In this document: piece by piece, positions 3,305 to 61,192 of the stretch
How the letters are laid out: each line of letters opens with the position of its first letter
Position numbering within the stretch: the stretch's first letter is position 1
Made by a program: the position numbers and the translations under genes
From: Plantibacter flavus
GTDB taxonomy: Bacteria > Actinomycetota > Actinomycetes > Actinomycetales > Microbacteriaceae
NCBI RefSeq assembly: GCF_002024505.1
Contig: NZ_CP019402.1
Coordinates: 3,286,001-3,350,000, forward strand
Reading direction: 5' to 3'
Length of the DNA: 64,000 nt
Notes under the pieces: generated by a model
What the model saw: only the letters and a program-made list of their open reading frames with translations
What the model was told of the DNA's origin: nothing
The model's database searches: none

Positions 3305-4165
3305 TCAACCAGCGGTGCGCCCCAGCATCACCAGAACCGTGATCCCGTTGAAGAACACATGCGTCCAGATGCCCGGTCCGAGGCGTCGGGTTGCCGCGGC
3401 GTAGACACCGTTGACCGTGCCGAGCACGAAGATGGTGAGGCCGAGGGCAACCATTGTGGGCGGACTGCCCCAGCCCTCGTAGAGGTGGACGACGGCGAAG
3501 ATGAGCGCACTCGCCCCGACCGAGACGACCGCCGCCGCGCGGCGACGTGCGGTGGAGGGTGTCGACGACGCGCCGCGGCGCACGCCTCCGACCGCGCGTC
3601 CGCGGAGGATCGAGTTCCGGAAGCCGCGCAGGAGCAGTCCGCGGAACAGAAGCTCCTCGCAGAAGGGCGCGACGATCGCGGCGGCGAAGACGGTGTTCAG
3701 GAGCACCCACAGGAGTTCGGGTGAGGGTGCCGCGATGTTCGACTTCGGCGCTTCACCGGAGACGGCGGTCACGAACTCGGTGACGATCGCGCCGATCATC
3801 TGGATACCGATCGCTGAACCCAGGCCGATGAACACGTCGAACCAGCGGAAGCGGAGGCCGAAGTCCTTCACCCACGAACCGCTCCCGCGGTTGCGGCACA
3901 CGACCGCCAGGGCGACGAGGATCCCGCCGTCGAAGATGACCCACTGGAGCATCCGGCCGATGTCCCCGGACAGGATTCCGAAGGCGCGGGCGAGCTCGAC
4001 GACGACGAGCAACCCGATGATCGCGATGAAGGTCACGATCGCGGTCGGCGTCCCCCACCGGGTGTCCGGTGCGGGGGCGTACGGCAGGCGGGCCTCGGCG
4101 CGCCTGGCTTCGGCTCGTTCCTGACGGGATCCCGGGCGCGGCGAGGTCGAGGTCGGACCGGTCAT
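3305..4165 (-). CDS. CPBP family intramembrane glutamic protease
   Basis: A 286-residue polytopic membrane protein of the CPBP (CaaX protease / bacteriocin-processing, Rce1-like) family. The signature is present: Glu170-Glu171 with Arg175 (CEELLFRG), His227 in 'FAVVHLY' and His269 in 'THVFFNG', the catalytic glutamate/histidine set of this glutamic protease group. About eight hydrophobic segments follow a basic N-terminal tail of ~38 residues. The chosen ATG overlaps the stop of the upstream membrane-protein gene (ATGA), so the two are translationally coupled; longer in-frame extensions would run through that gene. Substrate unknown; in other bacteria such proteins act in bacteriocin immunity, protein sorting or membrane proteostasis. 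A second CPBP gene lies at 7927-8676. Confidence 0.88.
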   Translation of the reverse strand: MTGPTSTSPRPGSRQERAEARRAEARLPYAPAPDTRWGTPTAIVTFIAIIGLLVVVELARAFGILSGDIGRMLQWVIFDGGILVALAVVCRNRGSGSWVKDFGLRFRWFDVFIGLGSAIGIQMIGAIVTEFVTAVSGEAPKSNIAAPSPELLWVLLNTVFAAAIVAPFCEELLFRGLLLRGFRNSILRGRAVGGVRRGASSTPSTARRRAAAVVSVGASALIFAVVHLYEGWGSPPTMVALGLTIFVLGTVNGVYAAATRRLGPGIWTHVFFNGITVLVMLGRTAG

Positions 4166-41160: not shown

Positions 41161-41323
41161 CAGCGCGGTGCGCTGGCGTGAGCGCGGGTCACACGCGTGA
41201 GCGCGGGTCTCCGGAGGGGCGCGCTCAGGGCTACGACCCGCGCCCACGCCGAACTCGTTGGTTTCGTGTCAGCGCACCGCGCTGACGCCGAGTCCGCCCA
41301 ACTCACGTCAGCGCACCGCGCCG
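41161..41323. repeat. Family-2 palindromic repeat, copy A
   Basis: Nested inverted repeat: outer arms CAGCGCGGTGCGCTGG and GTCAGCGCACCGCGCTGAC; inner arms GTGAGCGCGGGTC (two tandem copies) and GACCCGCGCCCAC; loop around CTCCGGAGGGGCGCGCTC. A second copy of the outer right arm follows (TCAGCGCACCGCG at ~41309). It fills the gap between the tRNA terminator and the marR promoter. Confidence 0.85.
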
Positions 41324-42057: not shown

Positions 42058-43626
42058 ATGCACCCCGAAGACCACATCGATCCCACAACCGGAACGCCCC
42101 TCCCCAGCAGCACCGCACCGTCGACGGCCACCGCGCCACCGACCGTCACCACAGCCTCGACCGACACCGCACCCTCGACCGACACCGCGACATCGGCCGA
42201 CAACGCACCATCGACCGCCGCCGACACGGTCGGCAGCAACCGCTGGTACCTCGCGACCGCCCCGATCATCCGGGCACTCATCCATCTGTGTGTCCCGATG
42301 GCGGCGGCCCTGGTCGTCAGCGCCGTCTACAACCTCATCAACGCGGGTGTCGTCGGCTCGCTGCACGACACCTCGCTCCTCGCCGCGATCACCCTCGGAG
42401 CCCCGATCCTCGGACTGATCATGGCGATCGGCGACCTGTTCGGCGTCGGCGGCGGCGCGCTCATCTCCAGGCTCCTGGGCGCCTCCGAACACGACCCGGC
42501 ACAGGCCGGAGACATCAAACGGGCCGCCTCCTTCTCCGTCTGGGGCGCGTTCCTGACGGGCGCCGTCCTGGGCGGGATCGGCCTCGTGTTCCTCGGCCCG
42601 CTCGTGTCGCTGCTCGGGGCGGACGCGGTCACCGCACCCGCGACCTCGGCGTTCATCGGCGTCATACTCGCGTTCGTCCCCGTCATGGCGACCGCGTTCT
42701 GCCTGGAACAGCTCGTGCGGGCCGAGGGTGCCGCCCGTCAGGTGATGATCGCCCTCATCGCGTCGGCCATGGCGAACCTCGTCCTCGATCTCGTCTTCAT
42801 CCTCGGGTTCGGCTGGGGCGTCGCCGGCGCGGCACTCGCGATGGGACTGGCGAACCTCGGCGTCCTCGTCTACTTCGTGGCGTGGCTGCAGCGCAACAGC
42901 GAGCACGTCAGCCTGGCACCGCGCTGGTTCACCCTGTCGCCGACGATCCTCAAGCCGGTCCTCGGTGTCGGGGTCAGCACGCTCCTGCAGTCGGGGTTCC
43001 TCATCGTCACCGCGCTCGTGTTGAACACGCTGGCCGCGGCCTACGGAGACGCCCCGCTGGCCGCCATGGGCGTCGCGGTCCGGATCGCCCAGGTGCCCGA
43101 GTTCCTGGTCATGGGCGTCACCTTCGGTGTGCTCCCGCTGCTCGCCTACGCGTTCGGCAAGGGCGACGGCGCGCGCCTCCGGTCGGCTCTCCGCGCCTCG
43201 GCACTCACCGTCGGCGGGATCTCGGTCCTCTTCGCCGGCGTCGTCCTCGTCCTGCGCGAACCGATCGTCTCCGCGTTCATCGCCGACCCCGCCGTCCTCG
43301 GTCTCGGCGTCACGATCCTCGTCGCCCAGCTCACCGCCATGATCGCCAACGGGTTCACCGGACTCATCACCTCGCTCTTCCAAGCGACCGGGCGAGCGCT
43401 CCCCGCGGCGGTCATGGCCGTCACCCAGGGCGTGTTGTTCGTCCCGATCGTCCTCCTCGGCAACCTGTGGTTCGGACTCGGTGGCATCGTCTGGTCGCTC
43501 ACCGTCACGGAGGTCATCGTCTTCCTGGTCGGTGTCCTGCTCTGGCTCGGCTCGCGACGCGCCATCGACCGCGGGCTCGCAGCCGGTTCGCCGGAGCGTG
43601 CCGAGGCCCAACTCGCCGACGCCTGA
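42058..43626 (+). CDS. MATE family efflux transporter
   Basis: A 522-residue transporter of the MATE family (Na+ or H+ antiport of drugs and other cationic compounds). A Thr/Ala/Ser-rich N-terminal tail of ~61 residues, encoded by short DNA repeats of the form ACCGACACCGC, precedes twelve membrane helices (first at about 68-90). The two six-helix halves are visible ('NLINAGVVGSLHDTS' and 'NTLAAAYGDAPLAAMGVAVRIAQ' are the equivalent helix 2 regions). The tail is unusual; translation may start closer to residue 60, but no better site was seen. Lies 233 bp after the marR gene on the same strand; drug specificity unknown. Confidence 0.9.
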   Translation: MHPEDHIDPTTGTPLPSSTAPSTATAPPTVTTASTDTAPSTDTATSADNAPSTAADTVGSNRWYLATAPIIRALIHLCVPMAAALVVSAVYNLINAGVVGSLHDTSLLAAITLGAPILGLIMAIGDLFGVGGGALISRLLGASEHDPAQAGDIKRAASFSVWGAFLTGAVLGGIGLVFLGPLVSLLGADAVTAPATSAFIGVILAFVPVMATAFCLEQLVRAEGAARQVMIALIASAMANLVLDLVFILGFGWGVAGAALAMGLANLGVLVYFVAWLQRNSEHVSLAPRWFTLSPTILKPVLGVGVSTLLQSGFLIVTALVLNTLAAAYGDAPLAAMGVAVRIAQVPEFLVMGVTFGVLPLLAYAFGKGDGARLRSALRASALTVGGISVLFAGVVLVLREPIVSAFIADPAVLGLGVTILVAQLTAMIANGFTGLITSLFQATGRALPAAVMAVTQGVLFVPIVLLGNLWFGLGGIVWSLTVTEVIVFLVGVLLWLGSRRAIDRGLAAGSPERAEAQLADA

Positions 43627-44797: not shown

Positions 44798-45505
44798 ATG
44801 TTGAGCGCCCAACGCCGATCGCACCTGATCGACCTCCTCGACCGCGACGGGCGGATCGTCGCGAAGGACGCCGCCGCTGCGCTCGGACTCTCCGAGGACT
44901 CGATCCGCCGAGACCTCCGCGAGCTGGCCGAAGCCGGCCTCTGCGTCCGCGTCTACGGCGGTGCACTCCCGGTCCCCGCGGCCGACCGCTCGTTCCACGA
45001 TCGGCTGTCCCTCGGGACGGCGAGCAAGGAGCGCGTCGCCCGCATCGCCGTCGAACGGATCCGACCAGGCAGCACCGTCATCATCGACGCCGGCACCACC
45101 GCGCTCGCCCTCGCGCGACTCCTCCCGGACGACCCCACCCTCACCGTCATCACCCCGAGCCCGGCGGTCGCCCTCGCCGTGGCGGAGCACTCGCCGGCGC
45201 GCGTCATCATGATCGGGGGCGAACTCGGACGTCACTCCATGGTCGCGGGCGGCGCTCTCGCCGCGGAGGCCATCCGTCACCTGAGCGCCGATGCCTGCTT
45301 CCTCGGCGTCACGGGCTTCCATCCCGAACACGGCCTCACCACCGGCGACCTCGACGACGCCGCGACGAAACGCGCCCTCGCCGAACGCAGCACCGACGTG
45401 TACGTGCTGGCGAGCGAGGAGAAGGTCGGGGCCGTCTCCCGGTACCCGGTGCTCGACCTCGGCGAGGTCACCGAGGTCATCGTCGATCCACAGACGCGCG
45501 GATAG
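44798..45505 (+). CDS. DeoR/GlpR family transcriptional regulator
   Basis: A 235-residue DeoR-type repressor. N-terminal winged helix (residues 1-60) with 'RIVAKDAAAALGLSEDSIRRDLRELAEAG', then the DeoR C-terminal sensor with 'VIIDAGTTALALARLL', 'LTVITPSPAVALAVAEH' and 'ADACFLGVTGF', the sugar-phosphate-binding (ISOCOT) fold. ATG at 44798 follows AAGGAG. Target probably includes its own promoter and the divergent DUF4406 gene. The inducing phosphosugar is unknown. Confidence 0.92.
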   Translation: MLSAQRRSHLIDLLDRDGRIVAKDAAAALGLSEDSIRRDLRELAEAGLCVRVYGGALPVPAADRSFHDRLSLGTASKERVARIAVERIRPGSTVIIDAGTTALALARLLPDDPTLTVITPSPAVALAVAEHSPARVIMIGGELGRHSMVAGGALAAEAIRHLSADACFLGVTGFHPEHGLTTGDLDDAATKRALAERSTDVYVLASEEKVGAVSRYPVLDLGEVTEVIVDPQTRG

Positions 45506-45546
45506 GACCGGTCGACGCGGGCCGGGGGTTCAGACGCGCGGGATCG

Positions 45547-46275
45547 TCAGGATCGCGGGTAGGTCTCGGCGAGGAACGCGGCGTAGCCACCCGGGGTCCG
45601 GCCACGTCGCCGACCCGAAGTCTCGACGGGTGCATCCGGCGTCGGCACGACCCTCAGACCCGCCGCGCGGGCGCGCTCGACCAGATCGACGTCCTCGTGC
45701 TCGGCCAGCTCACGGAAGCCGCCGAGTTCGTCGAGCCGATCGGCACGGACACCCAGGTTGGCCCCATGCACGTTGCCCGGCAGATGTCCGGGCGGGTGGG
45801 TCTCCATCCAGCGCTCGATGTCGCGCTCGGAGAAGTCCGTGAAGTCGGGACGGACGGTCCCGAGGAGGACGTCGACACCGTCGTCGAAGGCACGGGCGTG
45901 CACGGAGAACCAGTCCTCCGGAACGCGCGAGTCGGCGTCGGTGTTGGCGATCCAACGTTCTGAGACGCCTGCAGCATCCGACCCGGCATCACCCGATCGC
46001 CCAGCGGCCGCGACACCGGCCCGCCGGGCCGCCCCGACACTGCGCTCGTCGATGACGACGGTGACCGCCTCCTCGGGATCGAAGCCTGCCAACCGCTCCC
46101 GGACGATCCGCGCCGTGTCGTCGCGACAGTCGTCGAGCACCACGACGATCCCCACCTGCAGCTCGGGACGAGGACGCAGCACGGCGGCACGCGCGACGAG
46201 CAGCGCATCGAGGCACGCCCCGATCAGCTCCTCCTCGTCGTGTGCGGGCACGACGGCATCGATCCGTCGCAGCAT
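45547..46275 (-). CDS. Glycosyltransferase family 2
   Basis: A 242-residue GT-A glycosyltransferase. 'RIDAVVPAHDEEELIGACLDALL' is the N-terminal nucleotide-binding strand, 'IVVVLDDCRDDTARIV' follows, the metal-binding D-x-D is 'NTDADSRVP' (Asp113, Asp115), and 'GGFRELAEHEDVDLVERARAAG' provides the ED acid/base region (194-195). There is no membrane helix, so it works in the cytosol on a soluble or membrane-surface acceptor. Third gene of a coupled operon; its ATG overlaps the stop of the deacetylase-methyltransferase gene (TGATG). Donor and acceptor unknown. Confidence 0.9.
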   Translation of the reverse strand: MLRRIDAVVPAHDEEELIGACLDALLVARAAVLRPRPELQVGIVVVLDDCRDDTARIVRERLAGFDPEEAVTVVIDERSVGAARRAGVAAAGRSGDAGSDAAGVSERWIANTDADSRVPEDWFSVHARAFDDGVDVLLGTVRPDFTDFSERDIERWMETHPPGHLPGNVHGANLGVRADRLDELGGFRELAEHEDVDLVERARAAGLRVVPTPDAPVETSGRRRGRTPGGYAAFLAETYPRS

Positions 46276-47741
46276 CAGCCCGTCAGACCGTCCACCGTAG
46301 CGACGCTCGCCTCATCGGCGGGCACGAGGACGTCGAGCAGGAAGTCGTCCTCGACGTGCTGGACCGACCGACGGCCGGGCCAGCTTTCGAGCAACCGGCG
46401 ATGGACGAACTCGGCCGAGGTCGTGGCGTGGTCGTCGGGGTGCCGCCAGTGACACGCGACGATACTCCCGCCGGGCGTGAGTGAGCCGAGGAGGTGGTCG
46501 ATGACCCGGTCGAGGTCGGTCGCGGACAGGTAGTAGCCGACCTCAGACATCACCACGAGGTCGAAGACACCACTCGGCCAGTCGTCCGGGAGCGTCCCCC
46601 GTTCGAACCGGGCAGCGGGCACCCGTCGACGGGCGATCTCGAGGGGCGCCTCGGCGATGTCGACACCGAGCACGTCGTCGCTGCGGTCCGCGAGCCGCTC
46701 CGTCAGGACACCCGTCGCGCAGCCGAGTTCGAGCACCGAGCCGTAGCGCTGGCGCGGCAGGGCGGCGAGGAGGACCCGACGTTTGCGCTCCTCATACCAG
46801 GACCCGAAGTCCCAGCCGTCGGGGTGGTCGCGGTAGTGGTCCTCGAACGACTCCTTCGAGCGCGAGGTGGTGTCGGCAGTCACGACGGTGTCCGTCGCGG
46901 TGGCGTTGTCGGTGGCGACGTCGGTGTCGGAGTCCGCTGCCGCACCCGCATCCGGGTCGGAACCCGGCGCGAGATCCAGCGCACGCCCGTTCGGGAACAG
47001 CACCTCGAACCGCCGTGCGTAGTGCTGCAGGTGGTGGTGGTCGACGATCGCCTCGTCGCCCGGCGCATCCGAGAGCGGCTCCGTCTGCGAGGGGTAGGCG
47101 TCCATCGCGGCGATCTTCGCCCCGTGCGCCGCGGCGTCAAGCGGGACGATCCGCGCCTCGGCCCACGGCAGGGTCGCGTCGTCGGTGTCGGCCCAGTGCC
47201 AGAGCCAGATGGGGAACTCCACGAGCGCGAGGTCGAGCTCGGTCGCGAGGGCCGTGGTGAGTTCGCCCGCGATCCGGTGGTCGCGGTGCCCGTCGCCGCG
47301 CCAGGGGGCGACGATGAGCGGTCGTGATCCGGCAGTGGCGACGGCTGCCCGCAGTCGCTGCGCGATGCGCGCGCGTTCGGCGTCGAGGCCGCCGTCCGGG
47401 ATGTGCAGGACGTCGAACCCGACCGTCGGGTGGAGACGACCGACCGCGTCGACGAACTCCGCCTCCCGGCGCGGGGCGAGTTCCTCGGGGGTGGTGGTCG
47501 GCGAGTCGGGGTGCGATCCCTCGCCGAGGGTCACGAGGAGGACCTCGACCGGGATCCCGGCGGCCGCGGCGGCCGCGATCAGCCCGCCGGCTCCGAGCGA
47601 CTCGTCGTCGGGGTGCGGCGACAGCGCGACGACGCCCGTGGCATGTCGCCAGCCGTCCCAGACGGGCAGGTCGAGCTCGTGCAAGCGGGTCGCCCAGGCG
47701 GCTGCCGACGTGCCGGGGTCGCGGTGGTCGAAGGCGGGCAT
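46275..47741 (-). CDS. Fusion of PIG-L deacetylase and NodS-like SAM methyltransferase
   Basis: A 488-residue two-domain enzyme. Residues 30-250 are a PIG-L/LmbE zinc N-deacetylase with 'SPHPDDESLGAGG' (His43, Asp46) and 'GDGHRDHRIAGE' (His155) as the zinc site. A ~45-residue Asp/Thr/Ala-rich linker (255-297) joins it to a class I methyltransferase: 'SFEDHYRDHPDGWDFGSWYEERK' at the front, the SAM loop 'VLELGCATG' (336-344), 'VLGVDIAEAPLEIARRR', and 'VVMSEVGYYLSATDLDRV'. The last segments resemble NodS, the N-methyltransferase of Nod factor synthesis. Together the domains could remove an N-acetyl group and methylate the exposed amine. Overlaps both neighbours by one base of start/stop (TGATG at each end). 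Confidence 0.9.
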   Translation of the reverse strand: MPAFDHRDPGTSAAAWATRLHELDLPVWDGWRHATGVVALSPHPDDESLGAGGLIAAAAAAGIPVEVLLVTLGEGSHPDSPTTTPEELAPRREAEFVDAVGRLHPTVGFDVLHIPDGGLDAERARIAQRLRAAVATAGSRPLIVAPWRGDGHRDHRIAGELTTALATELDLALVEFPIWLWHWADTDDATLPWAEARIVPLDAAAHGAKIAAMDAYPSQTEPLSDAPGDEAIVDHHHLQHYARRFEVLFPNGRALDLAPGSDPDAGAAADSDTDVATDNATATDTVVTADTTSRSKESFEDHYRDHPDGWDFGSWYEERKRRVLLAALPRQRYGSVLELGCATGVLTERLADRSDDVLGVDIAEAPLEIARRRVPAARFERGTLPDDWPSGVFDLVVMSEVGYYLSATDLDRVIDHLLGSLTPGGSIVACHWRHPDDHATTSAEFVHRRLLESWPGRRSVQHVEDDFLLDVLVPADEASVATVDGLTG

Positions 47742-48763
47742 CAGTCGGCCTCCACCAGCATGCGGCCGTAGCGCGCGAGGTCGCGGTCGCCGTGGTCCTG
47801 CTGGACGTAGAGCTCGAGGTCGGACATCCGAGCGAGGTAGGCGGGTTCGGAGGTGAGCGGGCCGGGGCCGAGCGCTCCGAGCACCCCGGCGCGGATGGCG
47901 TCGACCCGACCGCGGACCGTCGACCGCACGCGCTGGGCGAGGCGCGGGCCGGCCGTGTCGTCGGCGTGGCCGTGCTCGATGGCCTGGGCCGCGTCGGCGA
48001 TCGCCTGCTCGGCGATCGAGAGGTCGATGGCCGCGGCGCCGAGCGTGCGTAGGAGGAGGTCGGCGTCGGGTCGCGTGCGTGCCGCGGCGAGCAGGCGGTC
48101 GACGAGCGTGATCGCGCCGCCCCACCAGCAGGCGGCGACGCCGATCCCGCCCCAGGAGAAGCCGGGGCGTCGCAGGTACCACCCGTCGTCGCCGACCGGA
48201 GACGCCGGGACGCCGTCGAAGCCGACGGGGCCACTCGGGACGAGCGGCAGTCCGCGGGCGAGCCAGGCGCTGTCGTCGGTCGTGACCCCGGGATCGGTGA
48301 GTGCGACGGCGAACAGCCGCCGCTCGCCCGGCGCGGTGTGGGCGGTGACGAGGGCGTCGCTCAGGTGGGAGGCGAGGGAGCACCACGGCTTGGTGCCGGT
48401 CAGCTGCCAGGCGTCGTCGACCAGGGTCGCGTCGAGACGCAGCCCGGGTGCTTCGGCCGCGAAGACGCCCCAGGTGGAGACGGTCGGCGGTTCGAGGTCG
48501 GCCTGATGCAGGATGGCCAGTGCGTCGAGGTGCGGTTCGACGACGCGTGCGAGCGTGACGTCGGCCGCCGCGATCGCGCCGAGTCCTGCGAAGACGCGCC
48601 CGGCGGTGTGCTGTTCGAGCGGACCGATGAGTCGCACGGCTGTGGAGGTGAACGCCAGGCGCGACTCGATGCTCGCCAACGATTCCGTGGCCGCGTCGTG
48701 CAGAGCGTCGAGGTCGAGGGAGGTGCCGCTGGAAGGCCAGGCGGTCGACTGCAGACGGATCAT
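47741..48763 (-). CDS. Acyl-CoA dehydrogenase-like flavoprotein
   Basis: A 340-residue protein of the acyl-CoA dehydrogenase superfamily, slightly shorter than the usual 380. Recognisable parts are the flavin/middle domain 'WGVFAAEAPGLRLDATLVDDAWQLTGTKPWCSLASHLSDALVTA' (in parts, around 95-140) and a C-terminal helical domain with 'AAIDLSIAEQAIADAAQAIE' and 'LYVQQDHGDRDLARYGRML'. The catalytic glutamate of true acyl-CoA dehydrogenases was not identified by eye. First gene of the coupled operon with the deacetylase-methyltransferase and glycosyltransferase, so its substrate is probably a sugar-linked or lipid precursor of that pathway rather than a beta-oxidation intermediate. Confidence 0.82.
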   Translation of the reverse strand: MIRLQSTAWPSSGTSLDLDALHDAATESLASIESRLAFTSTAVRLIGPLEQHTAGRVFAGLGAIAAADVTLARVVEPHLDALAILHQADLEPPTVSTWGVFAAEAPGLRLDATLVDDAWQLTGTKPWCSLASHLSDALVTAHTAPGERRLFAVALTDPGVTTDDSAWLARGLPLVPSGPVGFDGVPASPVGDDGWYLRRPGFSWGGIGVAACWWGGAITLVDRLLAAARTRPDADLLLRTLGAAAIDLSIAEQAIADAAQAIEHGHADDTAGPRLAQRVRSTVRGRVDAIRAGVLGALGPGPLTSEPAYLARMSDLELYVQQDHGDRDLARYGRMLVEAD

Positions 48764-48893
48764 GCGATCCTCGTCTGGTGTCGGGGTTCCATCGGTGCGC
48801 GCATGCGACCTCCTCGCGTCGTGGAGGTCCAAGTCTCGCACCGCCGCGCGCCGCCGCCCGACCCTGGACCGCGACCATCGACCCTGGTAGTGC

Positions 48894-49126
48894 GTCAGCG
48901 CGGTGCGCTGACGCGAGCGCGGGTCTCCGGACGGATGCCAGCGCGGTGCGCTGACGCGAGCGCGGGTCATGGACGTGAGCGCGGGTCATGGACGTGAGCG
49001 CGGGTCTCCAGAGGGGCGCGCTCGTTCGCCTGACCCGCGCTCACGCCGATTCCCCTGGGTTCGCATCAGCGCACCGCGCTGACACCGGTTACCGGCACCT
49101 CGGCTCAGCGCACCGCGCCGGCACCT
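48894..49126. repeat. Family-2 palindromic repeat, copy C (extended)
   Basis: The longest copy. The left arm CAGCGCGGTGCGCTGACGCGAG occurs twice (48896 and 48949), the inner GTGAGCGCGGGTC unit occurs in tandem with GGAC spacers, and the right side has GACCCGCGCTCACGCC, then TCAGCGCACCGCGCTGAC and a further TCAGCGCACCGCGCC. Internal duplications indicate that the element grows by unit copying. The 390-bp gap between the acyl-CoA dehydrogenase start and the acdS stop contains nothing else recognised. Confidence 0.85.
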
Positions 49127-49153
49127 CGCTCGGGCGGGACACCCGGCACCGGC

Positions 49154-50164
49154 TCAGTCGCGGAAGAGGGCGCTGTAGGCGTTGATCGCCGGCTGCCCAC
49201 CGAGGTGCGCATAGAGGACGTTGCTGGACGCCGGGATGTCACCACTCGTCACGAGGTCGATGAGGCCCGCCATCGACTTCCCCTCGTAGACCGGGTCGAT
49301 GATGACGCCCTCGAGCCGACCGGTCAGGCGGATCGCCTCCATCGTCGACTCGACCGGGATCCCGTAGAGGTCGCCGGCCCATCCTTCCAACACCGTGATC
49401 TCGTCATCGCGGAGCTCGCGTTCGAGGCCGATGAGCTCCGCCGTGTTGCGGGCGATGCGTGCGACCTGGTCGCGGGTCTCCTGGATCTTCGCCGACGCGT
49501 CGATGCCGATCACCCGGCGCGGTCGGTCCTGCCCGGCGAACCCGGCGATCATACCGGCGTGCGTGGACCCGGTGACGCTGCAGACGACGATCGTGTCGAA
49601 GAACACCCCGAGTTCACGCTCCTGCTGTTCGACCTCGGCGGCCCAGTTCGCGAAGCCGAGACCACCGAGCCGGTGGTCCGACGCACCGGCCGGGATCGCG
49701 TACGGGGTGCCGCCGCGTTCGCGCACGTCGTCGAGGGCGCGCTCCCAGCTCGACTTGAAGCCGATGCCGAAGCCCGCGGGATCGAGACGGACCTCGGCAC
49801 CCATGATCCGCGACAGCATGATGTTGCCGACCCGGTCGTTCACGGAGTCTGGCCAGTCCACCCAGTTCTCCTGCACGAGCACCGCCTGCATTCCGAGCTT
49901 CGCCGCGACCGCCGCGACCTGACGCGTGTGGTTGGACTGGTAGCCGCCGATCGACACGAGCGTGTCGGCACCCTGCGCGATCGCATCGGGGATGAGGTAC
50001 TCCAGCTTGCGGGTCTTGTTGCCGCCGTAGGCGAGACCGCTGTTGACGTCCTCGCGCTTGGCCCAAATGGTCGCGCCGCCGAGGTGGGCGGTGAGGCGGT
50101 TGAGTTCGTGGACGGGACTCGGTCCGAAGGTGAGCGGGTAGCGGGCGAAGTCGCTGAGGGACAT
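49154..50164 (-). CDS. acdS: 1-aminocyclopropane-1-carboxylate deaminase
   Basis: A 336-residue PLP enzyme cleaving ACC, the plant ethylene precursor, to 2-oxobutyrate and ammonia. The PLP lysine is Lys50 in '[12 protein letters not shown]'; Ser77 sits in 'GGYQSNHTR'. The residues that separate true ACC deaminases from the similar D-cysteine desulfhydrases are present: Tyr293-Glu294 in 'PVYEGKSM' and Leu321 in 'YAHLGGQ', each exactly one lower than the reference Tyr294, Glu295 and Leu322. Length matches the family (about 338). Follows the GntR/FCD regulator gene by 66 bp on the same strand. Indicates life on or in plants, with ACC used as a nitrogen source and plant ethylene lowered. Confidence 0.96.
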
Positions 50165-50230
50165 GTGGTGGCTCCTGGGTCTCGGTGGTGCGGCGGGATG
50201 TCGGGGAACGGGTCGGGTGGTGGGCGCTGC

Positions 50231-50899
50231 TCAGTCCTCGTCGAGGTGGGCGAGGACGAGGTCGGCGAGGGTCGTCCAGTTGCCTCGGACAAGGGCAGCC
50301 GCCGCGTCGACGTCCCCCTCCGCACAGCGCTCGATGACGGCGTCGTGCTGCGCGATCGACCCACGTGCCGCGACCGAGGAGAACCGCAACCGTTCTATCC
50401 GTCGCAGCAGCGGGGTGACCGCCTCGAGCGCATCACGGATGAACGGATTCCCGGCGACGTCCACAGCCACGGCGTGGAAGGCGTCGTCGGCCGCGAGCGC
50501 GGCCTCGGCATCGTCACGCTGGAGGGCGGCTGCGAAGTCACGGTTCGCCGCGCGCATGCGGTCCAGGTCGGACGAACTCAGGTGCGGTACCGCCTCACGG
50601 ACGGCGAGTTCGTGCATGGCGGCGGCGACCGCCTGTGCCTGCAACGTCGCCCGGCTGTCGAGTGGGGCGACGACGGTCGACCGTCCGGGTTTCGCGATGA
50701 CGAGCCCGCTCCGGGCGAGACGCAGGACGGCCTCGCGGATGGGCGTGCGGCTCACGCCGAGCCAGCGTTCGAGTTCGGTGTCGACGAGCTTCTCGCCCGG
50801 AGTGAAGGTCCCGTCGACGATCGCATTGCGCAGCGACTGGTAGACGTCGTCGCGGAGGAGCGCTCGGCGATGCGGGTTGGCTTGAGCGGGAGCGGGCAT
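50231..50899 (-). CDS. GntR family (FadR/FCD) regulator of acdS
   Basis: A 222-residue FadR-subfamily regulator: winged helix at 15-80 ('DVYQSLRNAIVDGTFTPGEKLVDTELERWLGVSRTPIREAVLRLARSGLV' in parts), then a helical FCD effector domain with metal-binding histidines ('DAFHAVAVDVAGN', 'SIAQHDAVIERC'). It precedes acdS in one operon. A 14-bp perfect palindrome overlaps its start codon, which fits autoregulation of both genes by an amino-acid- or organic-acid-type ligand, possibly ACC itself. Proteobacterial acdS genes are usually controlled by an Lrp-type activator, so this is a different control plan. Confidence 0.9.
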   Translation of the reverse strand: MPAPAQANPHRRALLRDDVYQSLRNAIVDGTFTPGEKLVDTELERWLGVSRTPIREAVLRLARSGLVIAKPGRSTVVAPLDSRATLQAQAVAAAMHELAVREAVPHLSSSDLDRMRAANRDFAAALQRDDAEAALAADDAFHAVAVDVAGNPFIRDALEAVTPLLRRIERLRFSSVAARGSIAQHDAVIERCAEGDVDAAAALVRGNWTTLADLVLAHLDED

Positions 50900-61026: not shown

Positions 61027-61192
61027 CAGCGCGGTGCGCTGACGCGAGCGAGGCCCAGTCGCGTGAACGCGGGTCTCCGGAGGGTCGCGCTCACGCGGCC
61101 GGGGCGCGCCCACGCCGATTCAGCAGCACTCGCGTCACCGCACCGCGCCGGGCCCCTCAGACCCGCGCCCGGGTCAGCGCACCGCGCCGGCG
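61027..61192. repeat. Family-2 palindromic repeat, copy D
   Basis: CAGCGCGGTGCGCTGACGCGAG on the left, a diverged inner part (GTGAACGCGGGTC, GCGCCCACGCC) and GTCAGCGCACCGCGCCGGCGTCAC on the right. Its right end overlaps the 3' end of the tetR gene and supplies its stop codon (61174-61176). Confidence 0.82.

Follow-up and report, generated by a model that had tools for sequence, protein, structure and literature searches.

The window analysed here is a stretch of 64,000 nucleotides from Plantibacter flavus, in which three adjoining genes and their neighbourhood contain the following features (positions within the window):

47741..48763, minus strand: gene 1 (340 aa), flavoenzyme of the ACAD superfamily, DszC-like by sequence profile, with a putative oxidation step
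47739..47743, minus strand: TGATG overlap of gene 1 and gene 2
46275..47741, minus strand: gene 2 (488 aa), PIG-L N-deacetylase fused to a NodS-like class I SAM methyltransferase
47247..47627, minus strand: PIG-L domain of gene 2 (residues 39-165), with zinc-site residues H43, D46 and H155
46875..46946, minus strand: low-confidence linker of gene 2 (residues 266-289, pLDDT <50)
46467..46823, minus strand: NodS-family methyltransferase match in gene 2 (residues 307-425)
46273..46277, minus strand: TGATG overlap of gene 2 and gene 3
45547..46275, minus strand: gene 3 (242 aa), GT2 glycosyltransferase with motifs D113-A-D115 and E194-D195
49154-50164: acdS (TIGR01274, 549.6 bits, cut-off 392)

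A preliminary description of this DNA had reported three open reading frames that overlap twice by their start and stop codons; the coordinates proved right and translation gave no internal stops. Such overlap exceeds chance: 130 of 153 adjacent same-strand pairs of module genes (gap <300) overlap in 72 other wide loci. Among 38 close relatives overlap was found at all 28 measurable junctions of the flavoenzyme gene with the fusion gene and at 33 of 38 junctions of the fusion gene with the GT2 gene, counts that rest on a gene caller written for the present analysis. A scan of positions 45400-49200 for promoters and terminators found neither.

Judged from its sequence, the P. flavus operon represents a widespread module of four enzymes in its fused form. 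Its gene order is kept in 38/38 orthologous loci from named genomes, and the loss of synteny that the preliminary description had named as refuting it was not seen. Flavoenzyme genes alone were used as bait in Actinomycetota (at 1e-15, matches in 40 of 296 genomes; 20 of the 30 loci given were taken wide) and Pseudomonadota (22 of 299 genomes matched at 1e-25; 20 of 22 loci taken wide), and presence was scored over all six-frame ORFs of at least 60 aa. A NodS-like methyltransferase was found nearby in 38 of the 40 loci, a deacetylase in 34 and a GT2 enzyme in 31; all four genes were present in 29/40, against 0/34 control stretches, the ones that existed out of 40 sought, one of which was shortened. 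One locus (L177) was scored as being without a deacetylase; a diverged PIG-L gene (37.1 bits) adjoins its GT2 gene, and the total was kept at 34. Since seven of the 20 actinobacterial loci come from a single family (f34), the sampled loci are not all independent. The profiles were built from sequences of other loci (ACAD 28, methyltransferase 30, PIG-L 27, GT2 22). The weakest actinobacterial matches at 1e-15 are probably ordinary ACADs. Genes predicted to encode a GT2 enzyme, an N-deacetylase, a NodS-like methyltransferase and an ACAD-superfamily flavoenzyme are co-encoded in Actinomycetota, Pseudomonadota and Deinococcota, usually with overlaps; for Deinococcus, Acinetobacter, Rubrobacter and further hosts no link to plants is evident. 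A long cluster in Janibacter additionally encodes a Zn-alcohol dehydrogenase, an SDR and a class-III aminotransferase.

The PIG-L domain of gene 2 passes in Pfam (81.1 bits, cut-off 28.2), and the proposed zinc residues His43, Asp46 and His155 are, together with D45, E47, H152 and D154, invariant in 27/27 aligned PIG-L sequences. Over this part, the profile of the fusion protein matches TT1542, diacetylchitobiose deacetylase and MshB. At eight of the 40 sampled loci, among them a plasmid of Rubrobacter indicoceani, a NodB-like CE4 deacetylase stands in for PIG-L, which supports deacetylation of an N-acetyl sugar. The one CE4 enzyme that was tested comes from Rubrobacter; of the NCBIfam models, NodB matches it best (113 bits, cut-off 240). 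The CE4 profile was made from these same eight loci and L164, and the eight had first been retrieved with the single L164 query. Gene 3 was likewise correctly described as a GT2 enzyme with DxD and ED motifs: it passes PF00535 (44.7 bits, cut-off 23.3), and D113, D115, E194 and D195 are invariant in 22/22 aligned GT2 sequences.

The methyltransferase had been likened to NodS. Gene 2 does pass the NodS family of Pfam (PF05401, 35.9 bits, cut-off 24), a lax test since the same cut-off is passed in 6/14 control genomes, and the generic Methyltransf_25 scores higher (53.2). In NCBIfam, the NodS model NF041650 gives 45.3 bits, far from its equivalog cut-off of 300 and almost equalled by the corrinoid-associated CpaM model (44.5); three other module methyltransferases score 73.8-76.3 bits, a NodS from a nodABCSUI locus 342 and another NodS 293. 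Against solved structures, the family profile matches NodS with 100 bits and the next methyltransferase of known function with 67.6, and in Foldseek an uncharacterised Pseudomonas syringae enzyme at rank 1 is followed by NodS at ranks 2-6. NodS is therefore the closest characterised relative by profile and fold; on the question whether the domain scores closer to unrelated families, the generic Pfam score and the near tie with CpaM go against the likeness, the family-level profile and the fold for it, and the equivalog assignment falls. In the maximum likelihood tree NodS is nested among the module enzymes (95/95) on a long branch. A topology with NodS outside was not rejected by the AU test (p 0.197), and with this result and the long branch a firm claim that NodS originated inside the module family was dropped despite the nesting.

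Gene 1 belongs to the ACAD superfamily in the sense of its fold, and is a diverged member: the Pfam scores for the C-terminal (20.2 bits, cut-off 22.4) and middle (19.5 bits, cut-off 33.3) domains both stay below their cut-offs. The family profile matches DszC best (74.4 bits), followed by KijD3 (63), the top ACADs (54-56) and MCAD (26), and gene 1 shares with DszC the motif K-x-[WF]-C-S, although its identity to DszC/TdsC and KijD3/DnmZ is <20%. In Foldseek, DszC/TdsC form the top rows and KijD3 and DnmZ appear at ranks 15-18; by structural Z score DszC comes lower, and the DszC types are not separated from the acyl-CoA dehydrogenases. A gene for an NAD(P)H-FAD oxidoreductase lies inside 8/8 of the CE4-type modules.

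From this gene content we infer, with a probability of roughly 0.5, that the module encodes a pathway for a modified amino-sugar glycoside or glycoconjugate that most likely serves stress survival. The GT2 enzyme would transfer an N-acetylated sugar to an acceptor, PIG-L (elsewhere CE4) would strip the acetyl group, and the NodS-like enzyme would then methylate the freed amine. The flavoenzyme, presumably closer to the flavin-dependent monooxygenases (DszC, amino-sugar nitrososynthases) than to fatty-acyl dehydrogenases, may oxidise the same sugar or its amine, and in some genomes additional glycosyltransferases could lengthen the product.

A small molecule is an unlikely product by comparison, yet the most serious competitor: a low-molecular-weight thiol, an aminoglycoside-like pseudosaccharide or an arsenosugar-like compound, with glycosyltransferase and PIG-L working the way they do in the synthesis of mycothiol or bacillithiol and the aglycone as target of the methyltransferase. 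In those two pathways a glycosyltransferase acts first and the deacetylase second, and gene 2 shares with MshB and BshB the PIG-L family and the zinc site. Both models match its PIG-L domain, gene 3 matches the "arsenosugar" glycosyltransferase family TIGR04283 (29.9 bits, cut-off 182), and the extra enzymes of the Janibacter cluster would suit such a product. However, every one of these equivalog matches, including those of MshB and BshB, is far below its cut-off, PIG-L of this branch is fused to a methyltransferase, and the module has a GT2 enzyme, whereas mycothiol and bacillithiol synthesis use a GT4-type transferase.

Less likely still is that the flavoenzyme is a true acyl-CoA or acyl-ACP dehydrogenase and the product a glycolipid whose acyl chain is unsaturated, which would be nearer to the lipo-oligosaccharide idea. 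Acyl-CoA dehydrogenases carry a conserved Glu base at the position of MCAD E376 or of IVD E254. Among 53 aligned flavoenzymes, the first position holds Glu in none and Asp in three, including P. flavus gene 1 (Asp323), and the second, placed by eye, holds Gly in 45 and Asp in eight, so that neither has a conserved acid across the family. The sequence profile favours the DszC-type monooxygenases, and NodA, the sole acyltransferase family searched, matched at none of the 72 module loci. A simple acyl-CoA dehydrogenase was rejected for the missing Glu and the weak Pfam scores, a rejection that does not extend to the P. flavus copy with its Asp323.

A plant-directed lipo-chitooligosaccharide signal resembling Nod factors is highly improbable in spite of a GT2 enzyme accompanied by NodS-like enzymes and, in a single lineage, by NodB-like ones, given the NodA result, a NodC match at a single locus, the widely missed NodS cut-off, and hosts and neighbours that do not suggest plants. 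With one Agrobacterium query each, NodA matched 0/72, NodC 1/72 (L160, which encodes a trifunctional protein) and NodB 9/72 module loci, eight of them distinct; the 72 include one duplicate, since L127 and L164 represent one and the same plasmid from Rubrobacter. In the P. flavus window NodS alone matched among the Nod queries, and the neighbourhood does not qualify as nodABC(S)UIJ. As these queries turned up neither NodA nor a NodC-type synthase, the product is not a Nod factor, and a Nod-factor operon proper was rejected on these counts and the NodS cut-off. The reasoning behind the proposed chemistry stands, backed by the methyltransferase and by the CE4 enzyme of one lineage. As in rhizobial nod loci, the gene for the methyltransferase has those for an N-deacetylase and a GT2-type enzyme as neighbours; the module differs in that its GT2 does not match NodC, NodA has no match, the deacetylase is mostly PIG-L and a flavoenzyme is added. 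A protein annotated as trifunctional GT2/NodS-like methyltransferase/polysaccharide deacetylase (Sulfitobacter L160, Gloeothece, Rhizobium) likewise unites the three activities, and in the tree of module enzymes its methyltransferase part falls together with NodS. It differs in its CE4 deacetylase and fusion order, its GT2 part scores 46 bits with the module profile, and at L160 the flavoenzyme is absent within the 16.6 kb read.

Returning to the amino-sugar glycoconjugate, we tentatively suggest, with the odds against it, that several phyla make a common unnamed stress-protective compound of this kind via the module, and that the NodB/NodS-type tailoring of rhizobial Nod factors, deacetylation followed by N-methylation, is derived from this older non-symbiotic pathway or goes back to a common ancestor with it. 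Should this hold, a compound of Actinomycetota, Pseudomonadota and Deinococcota, including Acinetobacter and Deinococcus, be it a metabolite or a surface glycan, would have been overlooked even though catalase, trehalose or DNA-repair genes adjoin its genes in many of them; the tailoring enzymes of Nod factors would belong to a wider, non-symbiotic pathway, and the annotation "SAM methyltransferase / PIG-L / acyl-CoA dehydrogenase" would become a testable four-step route.

The neighbours of the module bear on the proposed role in stress. Stress-type genes are enriched near it in Pseudomonadota (9/20 versus 0/19), enrichment is not clear in Actinomycetota, and none lies near the P. flavus copy; in some bacteria the annotated neighbours are catalase, trehalose or DNA-repair genes. 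The acdS gene, which the preliminary description had mentioned alongside the operon, is only a local neighbour: within the stretches covered, it adjoins the module together with its GntR regulator in 4/38 relatives, all Plantibacter, and a functional link was rejected.

Among the matches listed in an open-access literature search (titles and openings of abstracts), none describes a function of the module. The passages considered from PMC8092242 do not mention it. In a study of UV and desiccation in Curtobacterium, an acyl-CoA dehydrogenase is reported to rise on drying, as are glycosyltransferases that it does not name; locus names are not given, and the word "deacetylase" is absent from its main text (PMC12029717). 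In Acinetobacter baumannii, an expression table prints ACICU_02432-02435 as one operon, annotated as glycosyltransferase, SAM methyltransferase, LmbE and acyl-CoA dehydrogenase-related, and these module-like genes drop in expression jointly with catalase and OtsA/OtsB genes (PMC5660220, Table 2); the section considered assigns them no function. Another A. baumannii record has the module genes in the same order; by order and names the four, which are unfused, would be the same module genes. In Sphingomonas melonis, the EcfG-dependent glycosyltransferases #3505-3509 (PMC6599016) might represent a long form of the module.

The window carries, on its minus strand, the three genes proposed in the preliminary description, with TGATG at both gene junctions as read from its sequence. 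The genome measures 4.21 Mb in one contig, and its closest relatives among named genomes belong to Plantibacter.

45547-46275, minus strand: gene 3, GT2
46275-47741, minus strand: gene 2, PIG-L domain fused to a class I SAM methyltransferase
47741-48763, minus strand: gene 1, 340 aa, Pfam acyl-CoA dehydrogenase (ACAD) domain matches, all sub-threshold

The module to which these genes belong is real, widely shared and biosynthetic; its product and role we infer. With gene 2 as the query, a pattern scan of named genomes yielded 40 loci, two of which (L041 and L042) were dropped because the match was limited to the methyltransferase. The order ACAD, fusion, GT2 is kept on a single strand in all 38 remaining loci (four from Plantibacter, one from Janibacter, the remainder from Curtobacterium or other Microbacteriaceae). 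The fusion of one Curtobacterium locus (L039) aligns to the query over residues 3-83 and 227-486 only, which looks like a partial loss of the PIG-L domain. Among 60 relatives searched, 13 strong-match genomes outside the genus were examined; 12 contain all three gene kinds, and in the thirteenth (L071) the locus is interrupted by a contig end. Gene order is altered in L067, L069, L073 and L074, and L069 encodes methyltransferase and deacetylase as two separate genes.

Unfused ACAD, PIG-L, methyltransferase and GT2 genes were found in plasmid-collection records of Acinetobacter, Bradyrhizobium, Pandoraea, two Deinococcus, Kitasatospora (GT2 detected by profile), Sphingomonas, Sulfitobacter, Komagataeibacter and Novosphingobium. 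No GT2 was found in the stretch read around the D. radiodurans or Roseomonas sets. The stretches read hold an incomplete set with a diverged PIG-L nearby in Cupriavidus, methyltransferase and GT2 only in Paraburkholderia, and ACAD only in Methylobacterium. The D. radiodurans flavoenzyme (L159:3190-5529) has 779 aa, about 420 N-terminal residues of which lack a Pfam match, and an opposite-strand helicase gene lies between the flavoenzyme and PIG-L genes and the methyltransferase gene. At another homologous locus (L068:7608-9161) a HAD-family phosphatase domain is fused to the module GT2.

Used alone as bait, the flavoenzyme profile found matches at E<=1e-15 in 40 of 296 genomes of Actinomycetota and, at E<=1e-25, in 22 of 299 from the phylum of a Burkholderiales genome (Pseudomonadota). 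Wide stretches were taken around 20 loci per phylum (40 in total), with 34 stretches from the same genomes as controls. The ACAD, PIG-L, methyltransferase and GT2 profiles were trained without the 40 sampled loci. Near the flavoenzyme we found a methyltransferase in 38/40 loci, a deacetylase in 34/40 (PIG-L 26, CE4 8; the CE4 profile was derived from these same CE4 loci, first detected by one Rubrobacter protein), GT2 in 31/40 and all four module genes in 29/40, against 0/34 controls in each case. In 130 of the 153 pairs of neighbouring module genes on one strand the frames overlap, and the genes of 14 other pairs are at most 30 bases apart.

The strongest chemical clue is the replacement of PIG-L by CE4. 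The PIG-L zinc-site residues are invariant (27/27 sequences). Eight of the 20 Actinomycetota loci in the sample (7 from one family) lack PIG-L and have, within the operon, a CE4 polysaccharide deacetylase gene (L164, identical to L127; L125; L126; L128-L132), together with an additional NAD(P)H-FAD oxidoreductase gene. One of the eight is a Rubrobacter indicoceani plasmid (L164), whose CE4 protein matches PF01522 with 92 bits and has NodB as its top NCBIfam model (113 bits, cut-off 240); the only match of the adjoining methyltransferase at E<=1e-8 is NodS. That two unrelated deacetylase families share one slot argues, from the usual activity of both, that the step is removal of an N-acetyl group from a sugar.

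The methyltransferase of gene 2 (METHYLTRANSFERASE) is NodS-like rather than NodS. A profile of 15 fusions scores 225 bits against the uncharacterised Pseudomonas syringae structure 4isc, 100 against NodS and 67.6 against the next methyltransferase of known function, and Foldseek with the predicted fusion structure (mean pLDDT 87.5) places 4isc at rank 1 and NodS at ranks 2 to 6. Yet gene 2 reaches only 45.3 bits on the NodS equivalog (cut-off 300; CpaM 44.5), on which two genuine NodS proteins reach 342 and 293. A tree was built from 80 rows (5 NodS, 1 trifunctional protein, 4 outgroups and 70 from modules), 78 of them different. In it, NodS and the trifunctional protein nest within the module methyltransferases (95/95), near those of CE4-type, Deinococcus and alphaproteobacterial modules; an alternative tree grouping all 70 module rows is not rejected (p-AU 0.197). 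The analogy drawn earlier with GT2, N-deacetylase and NodS-like chemistry is a good one; the accompanying interpretation as a signal or in relation to plants is unsupported. A Sulfitobacter locus (L160:6396-9476) encodes a trifunctional GT2, NodS-like methyltransferase and polysaccharide deacetylase, with relatives in Gloeothece and Rhizobium.

A longer form of the cluster is found in Janibacter, as a plus-strand run of catalase, Zn-alcohol dehydrogenase, SDR, flavoenzyme, fusion, GT2, GT4, GT28-like, GT7C-like (22.4 bits, cut-off 23) and class-III aminotransferase genes. Relatives of the three extra glycosyltransferases co-occur in L038, L124, L167, L182 and L186 (two phyla) and together in none of the 34 control stretches, so that the product may bear several sugars in some organisms.

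Among 17 hand-picked annotated stretches around module-type genes, six contain a catalase gene, and others OtsA/OtsB, Ku/LigD, Dps or ferritin-like proteins, DUF72, CsbD or RpoH. With 13 stress-type proteins from these stretches as references (RpoH left out), at least one such neighbour was found in 12/40 sampled loci versus 1/34 controls (Fisher p 0.002): 9/20 versus 0/19 in Pseudomonadota (p 0.0008) and 3/20 versus 1/15 in Actinomycetota. For catalase, Ku, LigD, OtsA and OtsB alone the counts are 7/40 versus 1/34 (p 0.047), and 6/20 versus 0/19 in Pseudomonadota (p 0.012). None of the reference proteins was found in the window.

No description of the module's function was found among the literature matches listed. 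An excerpt of one study (PMC5660220, Table 2) reports that ACICU_02432-02435 are down 31- to 62-fold in two colistin-dependent Acinetobacter baumannii mutants; the four genes, printed as a single operon, are annotated as glycosyltransferase, SAM methyltransferase, LmbE and ACAD-related. The same excerpt gives a drop of more than 10-fold for 33 genes, these four among them, including a catalase and trehalose-6-phosphate synthase and phosphatase. The gene order of this operon recurs, with frames that overlap, on another A. baumannii record, and order and the annotation in that excerpt suggest that ACICU_02432-02435 are module genes.

The surroundings of the operon in the window contain further features:

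42058-43626, plus strand: MATE efflux transporter gene (top NCBIfam model MepA, 245 bits, cut-off 850)
49154-50899, minus strand: adjoining pair of acdS (ACC deaminase) and an FCD-type GntR regulator gene
41266-41320, 43638, 48899-49078 and 61030-61186: sites of the short interspersed repeat CGCGGTGCGCTGACGC

AcdS scores 549.6 bits on TIGR01274 (cut-off 392), and the pair adjoins the module in 4 of the 38 relatives, in Plantibacter only. The repeat, at most one mismatch allowed, has nine copies versus 0.05 expected, three of them between acdS and gene 1.
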